This document shows positions 34,589-34,917 of a stretch of DNA of 64,000 nucleotides, one piece after another; positions within the stretch are counted from its first letter, which is position 1, and every line of letters begins with the position of its first letter. Location: positions 62,001 through 126,000 of the forward strand of contig NJBH01000008.1 in NCBI GenBank assembly GCA_005223125.1. The letters run 5' to 3'. The translations under genes and the position numbers were made by a program. Source of the DNA: Promethearchaeota archaeon Loki_b32. GTDB taxonomy: Archaea; Asgardarchaeota; Lokiarchaeia; Sigyniarchaeales; SOKP01. The notes beneath the pieces are model-generated. The model saw only the letters and a list, made by a program, of their open reading frames with translations, did not search any database and was not told the DNA's origin.

Positions 34589-34630
34589 TTATAAAATGGT
34601 TATATAATGGTGCTAATAACCATATAAATT
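34589..34630 (+). promoter_or_regulatory. Candidate promoter of the permuted 5S rRNA gene
   Basis: Several TATA-like boxes occur: TTATAAAA at 34571 and 34589, TATATAA at 34601-34607 and CATATAAAT at 34621. An archaeal start about 25 bases after the 34601 box would fall near 34630, just upstream of the predicted RNA. Which box is used cannot be decided by eye. Confidence 0.4.
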
Positions 34631-34638
34631 AAAAGCAA

Positions 34639-34786
34639 CTCGCTTAGTGCCGGAAGTTAAACTTGTATGCGTTGTAGATAGTACTGTAGTTGCGATCTAT
34701 GGGAAACTACAAACTGTAAATTTGTTTACGGTCATGGTTTACGAGGAAAATACCCGGTCCCATCCGAAAAACCAGCTAATTTCGAG
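34639..34786 (+). ncRNA. Circularly permuted 5S ribosomal RNA (candidate)
   Basis: All conserved 5S elements occur once but the 3' half comes first. The 3'-half elements are CCGGAAGTTAAAC (34650-34662), AGTACTG and GGGAAAC (34701-34707). Then come the 5'-half elements GGTCATGG (34730-34737), ACGAGGAAAATACCCGG and TCCCATCCGAA (34758-34768). Helix I (CTGTAAA 34714-34720 with TTTACGG 34725-34731) is closed by a TTTG loop where 5S normally has its free ends. Helix II pairs ACGAG with CTTGT; helix III is CCGG/CCGG; helix V is TTGTAG/CTACAA. The new ends lie in loop C, and flanking CTCG-TTAG (34639-34647) pairs with CTAA-CGAG (34776-34786). Exact ends are inferred. Permuted 5S is known in some stramenopile mitochondria. 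Confidence 0.8.
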
Positions 34787-34917
34787 ATGGTTCGGGAACC
34801 CGGAAATGCTATTTTATGTGGTTATAGTGTTTTCCATTTTTAGATTCCTCTAAAAATAAGTTTTTATATTATTAATTATATGCTTAATTAATACGGAATA
34901 ACTCTTGTAGTGATACC

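Follow-up and report, generated by a model that had tools for sequence, protein, structure and literature searches.

The Lokiarchaeote Loki_b32 carries its 5S rRNA gene as a circular permutation at positions 34656-34805 of the window, that is, of the whole 64,000-nucleotide stretch analysed here (all features given below lie on its forward strand). The permuted gene is not peculiar to this genome and is spread over most of the Asgard phylum. We consider it about 80% probable that the gene is functional and that its transcript is cut at a bulge-helix-bulge (BHB) motif by the tRNA-splicing endonuclease EndA and ligated by RtcB into a covalently circular 5S rRNA. Few RNAs are as strongly conserved as 5S rRNA, and permuted genes mended by tRNA splicing have been described for SRP RNA and tRNAs.

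Architecture of the locus

Reading of the sequence reveals every conserved 5S block as a single copy within the gene, with the natural 3' half leading, the natural 5' half trailing and helix I between them closed by a TTTG loop. A first-pass annotation had proposed a permuted 5S rRNA gene with an intact helix I and a short closing loop in an Asgard (Lokiarchaeote) genome. The single-copy blocks, the swapped halves and the conservation and covariation across Asgard genomes, helix I included, bear this out, whereas its boundaries, 34639-34786, have to give way to those stated above. The 148-base sequence between these earlier boundaries occurs only once in the assembly. The Rfam 5S model (RF00001) recognises only a fragment at 18.1 bits, below its gathering cut-off of 38 bits, as is expected of a permuted gene, and a covariance model of the permuted order (R1) matches positions 34656-34754 with 109 bits. 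Five helices and the conserved loops, the structural hallmarks of RF00001, can all be recognised, since helices I, II, IV and V covary and helix III and loop C are regained on religation; the natural linear order and a score above the cut-off are missing. The mitochondrial permuted model mtPerm-5S is not among the Rfam matches listed for the locus at E<=1, where clan competition may mask such a match. A 68-amino acid open reading frame (34647-34853) overlaps the gene and is regarded as spurious.

Upstream of the gene lies a probable archaeal TATA box, TTATAAAA (34589-34596), which suggests an independent transcription unit, and a CTTATAAAATGG-like element is found at a comparable upstream distance in relatives. 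A scan for sigma-70 promoters at the locus returned nothing, as expected in an archaeon. Judged from the sequence, transcription would start about 25 nt downstream of the TATA-like box, and a flanking stem of the precursor begins at this expected start. Its arms, ATAACCATATAAATTA (34616-34631) and TATTTTATGTGGTTAT (34810-34825), form a 16-nt inverted repeat with 88% complementarity; the counterpart in relatives reads AACCACATAAAT / ATTTATGTGGTT. The 5' strands of the BHB outer helix (TAGTG, 34645-34649) and of its central 4-bp helix (CCGG, 34650-34653) follow, and then the 3-nt 5' bulge AA^G (34654-34656) of canonical BHB geometry, with a predicted cut at 34655^34656.

The predicted 150-nt body begins with the natural 3' strand of helix II (34662-34670) and the domain of natural helices IV/V and loop E (34672-34712, AGTACT ... 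GGGAAAC). Helix I is a closed hairpin, ACTGTAAA-TTTG-TTTACGGT (34713-34732), in whose loop (34721-34724) the natural 5S ends would fall, and is followed by the natural 5' strand of helix II (34737-34745); all four elements are supported by covariation. The natural 5' strand of helix III (CCCGG, 34753-34757) pairs with 34800-34803 in the religated product. Loop C holds an insertion of about 30 nt with its own hairpin AACCA/TGGTT (34768-34797, borders ambiguous), which is missing in most relatives, and the religated helix-III segment accordingly measures 51 nt in the window copy compared to 21-22 nt in relatives without it. From religation and the fit to the BHB, CCGG at 34800-34803 is the 3' strand of the central helix and, in the product, of helix III. 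The 3' bulge AA^A (34804-34806), with a predicted cut at 34805^34806, and the outer helix strand TGCTA (34807-34811), which pairs with 34645-34649, complete the motif; the outer helix varies between species with its pairing kept. Insertions of about 30 nt occur in permuted 5S genes at three sites, namely loop C as in the window, the helix IV/V domain and the helix I loop (loci L014, L029, L062; L031, L221, L229).

Two elements of the first-pass annotation take on another meaning in this map. The proposed end helix, CTCG/CGAG plus TTAG/CTAA, relies on bases of the loop C insertion, which most relatives lack, and is not conserved, so that of the covariation expected in helix I and in this helix only the former was found. 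The stretch GAACCCGGAA at 34795-34804, taken for a leftover of a second 3' half, lies inside the gene, where it supplies one half of the BHB as well as the second strand of helix III, the 3' one.

Covariation, distribution and normal-order copies

Thirty permuted modules from Lokiarchaeia, extending from the 3' strand of helix II through closed helix I to the 5' strand of helix II, were aligned without fitting to a model. RNAalifold recovered the 5S fold exactly, helix I forming a hairpin; 95.3% of the helix cells are paired and 20 of the 27 pairs show compensatory changes, a degree of pairing unmatched by any of 500 shuffles and dropping to 34-45% when partners are slid. Among 101 Asgard matches (89 distinct), compensated pairs rise to 25 of 27 with a covariation score of 0.82 compared to 0.20 after shuffling; the 94.3% of paired cells in this set is biased upward by the fitting of the alignment to the covariance model. 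By thermodynamic folding, the A+T-rich window copy does no better than shuffled sequences (z = -0.5 for 34639-34786 alone, a check that the first-pass annotation had proposed for this region), while GC-richer relatives reach z = -3 to -5. Folding energy by itself is uninformative for A+T-rich copies.

Covariance models of the permuted order, R1 and R2, were searched against 228 Asgard genomes. R2 matches 140 of them; in G028 and G030 the match is weak and falls on normal genes, so that about 138 genomes with the permuted form remain, in approximately 22 families; all 99 loci inspected directly are permuted. Within the family of the Lokiarchaeote, R1/R2 match 57 of 65 members, and among 24 same-family relatives a DNA search found the gene in 21, to which a pattern search added G024. 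Seven genomes with the permuted form consist of a single contig (G004, G009, G046, G088, G089, G090 and G174), among them G174 with 1,418,269 and G046 with 3,326,783 bases. Normal-order 5S genes occur in families f2, f18, f26, f27 and f28, and R2 had no match in f18, f26, f27 and f28. A scan of a genome collection with a Loki-specific pattern of the permuted order yielded 64 loci, about 45 of them assigned to Candidatus Lokiarchaeota or Lokiarchaeia, including the complete genomes CP070831 and CP070805. Pattern matches outside the Lokiarchaeotes (Bacteroidetes, Peregrinibacteria and others) were discarded as chance hits, the other 5S blocks being missing.

The first-pass annotation had named a second, normally ordered 5S gene as the observation that would speak against it. 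The Rfam model indeed detects one normal copy in the assembly (contig G000:C68, L001). Since a bacterial 23S rRNA containing a group I intron lies at this locus (LSU_rRNA_bacteria, 740 bits), the copy is attributed to contamination. No normal 5S was found in 24 same-family genomes, two of them single-contig, out of 39 near relatives; in the wider family it appears only on contaminant contigs, and complete genomes with the permuted form show no normal copy. Two further normal-order genes in Asgard metagenome-assembled genomes, at G141:C263 (L212) and G080:C310 (L299), were set aside since their sequence looks bacterial.

A pseudogene, a chimera or an artefact of assembly, a concern also raised in the first-pass annotation, could be suspected from a normal 5S in the same assembly and from the chimeras that metagenome-assembled genomes contain. 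Independent assemblies of about 138 genomes, including seven single-contig ones, share the swapped order; together with the covariation and the bacterial character of the normal copy, this leaves such an explanation a negligible probability.

A splice site at helix III

In a BHB motif, a 4-bp helix separates two 3-nt bulges, one on each strand (PMC7714728). The arrangement TAGTG-CCGG-AAG // CCGG-AAA-TGCTA in the window has exactly this geometry, as does its counterpart in most relatives, and a BHB search unconstrained in position recovers the site in most loci. Cutting after the second bulge base and joining restores ordinary 5S sequence in the window copy, ...GAACCCGGAA/GTTAAAC... (the slash marks the junction). 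The predicted window junction (34805/34656) reads ...GGGAACCCGGAA/GTTAAACTTG... and the predicted Odin-type junction ...CGATCACGGA/AGTTAAGC.... Three junction positions are found among the loci, each religating to a canonical helix-III segment of 21-22 nt as in normal 5S rRNA. Products of the first are ...CCGGAA/GTTAAAC and ...CACGGA/AGTTAAG; at the second (G002, G004, G010, G013 and G015), CTGG-AA^C // CCGG-TC^A gives CCCGGTC/CCATCCG; and at the third (G026), CCGA-AA^A // TCGG-AA^A gives ATCGGAA/ACACCCG.

The pairs of the central helix vary jointly, as CCGG/CCGG, CTGG/CCAG, CTGG/TCAG, CGTG/CACG (in G174), CCGA/TCGG and CCGC/GCGG. CTGG is not a copy of its partner CCAG, so that this form of the helix is more than a remnant of a duplicated gene. 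The outer helix reaches 10 bp in G174 (GGTAGTATCG/CGATACTACC) and 16 bp in G112. It was tested at 79 distinct loci whose sites had been picked by the central helix and the canonical product length only, blind to the outer helix. Own partners form 5.37 contiguous bp on average, compared to 0.83 +- 0.16 when the 3' arms are swapped between loci, and none of 5000 shuffles was as good (maximum 1.61); related sequences are not independent here, and swapping among relatives biases against the result rather than toward it. The order of the product was assessed with an HMM of normal Asgard 5S rRNA. Circles opened in the helix I loop score 22-75 bits compared to 11-36 bits in genomic order, with 39-75 bits and a mostly end-to-end match in 24 of 25 loci; shuffled sequences gave no match. 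The lowest score, 22 bits and the only one not above 38, belongs to the window copy, which carries the loop C insertion.

In L030, L072, L108, L123 and several loci of families f15 and f23 the BHB is imperfect, either because of a single mismatch or because the outer helix is short. In family f12 (L213, L237-L258), processing at a strict BHB, TCAG-AAA // CTGA-AAT, would keep an additional hairpin of 32 nt ahead of GTTAAG, which raises the question of a second splice or a retained expansion. The outer helix measures 11 bp in the two checked f12 loci having the strict BHB, and a second copy in G046 (L239), also of this family, religates canonically.

In the proposed maturation, the transcript would fold with its natural halves paired in the usual 5S manner and helix I closed by its tetraloop, and the flanks of the gene would pair into the BHB at helix III. 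EndA would cut both 3-nt bulges at the predicted positions and RtcB would join the ends of the body. The product would be a covalent circle in canonical order with an endless helix I, 150 nt long here and about 120 nt where relatives lack the loop C insertion. Two endA-type splicing endonuclease genes and one rtcB are present in the genome, and by analogy with the SRP RNA of Thermoproteus their products would be expected to make the circular 5S rRNA. Expression, cleavage, ligation and the presence of the circle rather than of a reopened linear form in the ribosome are predicted from sequence.

Such reopening is the main rival: the circle would be made by BHB splicing and then opened in the helix I loop to give an ordinary linear 5S rRNA with its ancestral ends regained. 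Circularly permuted tRNA genes take this route, being processed via a circle that is reopened into ordinary tRNAs according to a statement in a review (PMC10085705). The helix I loop, however, is short in nearly all loci (3-8 nt, with no leader or trailer), UNCG accounts for 37 of 56 distinct tetraloops (24 of them UUCG), as if the loop were kept for stability, and in one clade (L031, L229, L221) a 30-nt hairpin replaces the loop. The frequency of UNCG is hard to explain if the loop is excised, which favours a circular mature 5S rRNA and makes reopening unlikely.

It is also conceivable, with far lower probability, that the mature molecule is a linear permuted RNA with ends in or near loop C or helix III, like the mitochondrial 5S rRNA of some stramenopiles, and that the BHB-like helix only holds or defines these ends. 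This would accord with an engineered cp5S-23S ribosome in Escherichia coli, in which the native 5S ends are joined by a 4-nt connector, the molecule is opened in loop C or D and fused to 23S rRNA, and the cells live (PMC7283268). A nicked RNA would need neither the 4-bp central helix, the two 3-nt bulges and the covarying outer helix that the flanks retain nor three junction positions that rejoin to the exact canonical sequence. The E. coli construct, artificial and fused to 23S rRNA, at the same time shows that cells can live with a closed helix I, as the covalent circle would require.

Related systems, origin and significance

The literature searched contained no permuted 5S rRNA outside mitochondria or engineering and no cellular 5S rRNA that is both permuted and repaired by tRNA splicing; subscription papers and bioRxiv lay mostly outside its scope, so that a report elsewhere is possible. 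Permuted mitochondrial 5S rRNAs (mtPerm-5S) were reportedly described in some stramenopiles by Valach and colleagues in 2014 (cited in PMC10085705). They share the swapped gene halves and, unlike the Asgard gene, are organellar and eukaryotic; to our knowledge, they lack a BHB and have not been reported as circular.

The closest parallel is the SRP RNA of Thermoproteus tenax, whose permuted gene gives rise to a BHB cut by the tRNA-splicing endonuclease and to an RNA that is circular in vivo by RNA-seq (Plagens et al., 2015, PMC4731332). In both cases, an essential non-coding RNA was missed by annotation, the halves are swapped, a BHB marks the functional loop in which the ends meet (by prediction in the 5S) and a TATA box, a probable one here, is present, there about 26 nt ahead of the start. 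Swapped halves whose predicted religation is canonical, the mark of the SRP case, are found at all three junction positions of the 5S genes. The Asgard molecule differs in being an rRNA, the SRP case is known from a few Thermoproteus species, and the circle is proven there and predicted here. BHB motifs, EndA and ligation also act on archaeal rRNA, as in circular 16S/23S pre-rRNA and the permuted 23S rRNA of Pyrococcus furiosus, and circular 23S rRNA has been reported in ribosomes, Asgard transcripts included (PMC7758197, PMC12918454). In these cases, the 16S and 23S genes have the normal order and permutation results from processing, whereas the Asgard 5S is permuted in the gene itself; 5S was not known among the circularised archaeal rRNAs (PMC12918454). 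Circular 5S isoforms of Halobacterium and Sulfolobus, covalent with variable ends and read as degradation products (PMC12558985), derive from normally ordered genes, unlike the Asgard RNA.

The first-pass annotation had suggested an origin from a tandem 5S pair, which is plausible though unproven. G030, a single-contig genome of the same order, harbours three tandem normal-order 5S genes at 374-base spacing (C1:1399892-1400758; L004, L010, L011), and contig G093:C510 (L214) two tandem permuted copies, each with its own flanking helix. A normal-order archaeal 5S on G051:C117 (L218 / L306) is interrupted by a short BHB intron (CACG-GA^A ... CGTG-AA^A) at the G174-type junction position. Tandem duplication of an intron-bearing 5S gene would produce a permuted gene with the BHB already present. 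The contig G051:C117 carries archaeal RNA polymerase genes; its taxon is uncertain and possibly not Asgard. Another normal-order 5S (L291, G212:C15) has an insertion of about 30 nt close to loop B that may be a further intron.

In the paper on the closed genomes of Heimdallarchaeum, the 5S genes are said to be ones that 'could not be predicted' (PMC8813620). The permutation would explain why annotators failed to find Asgard 5S genes, and automatic annotation has overlooked this essential gene in considerably more than a hundred genomes. It is rather likely that most Asgard archaea, among them lineages of the Loki, Odin and Heimdall type (the names beyond Lokiarchaeota are presumptive), make an endless circular 5S rRNA from a permuted gene by means of tRNA-splicing enzymes, that the trait is old in the phylum and that the junction has moved at least twice. 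The 5S would then be the last rRNA to be added to those archaeal rRNAs that meet the splicing endonuclease, and the genes described here offer a testable model for how gene permutation arises. The ribosomes of the closest archaeal relatives of eukaryotes probably contain a circular 5S RNA, as predicted from these genes.
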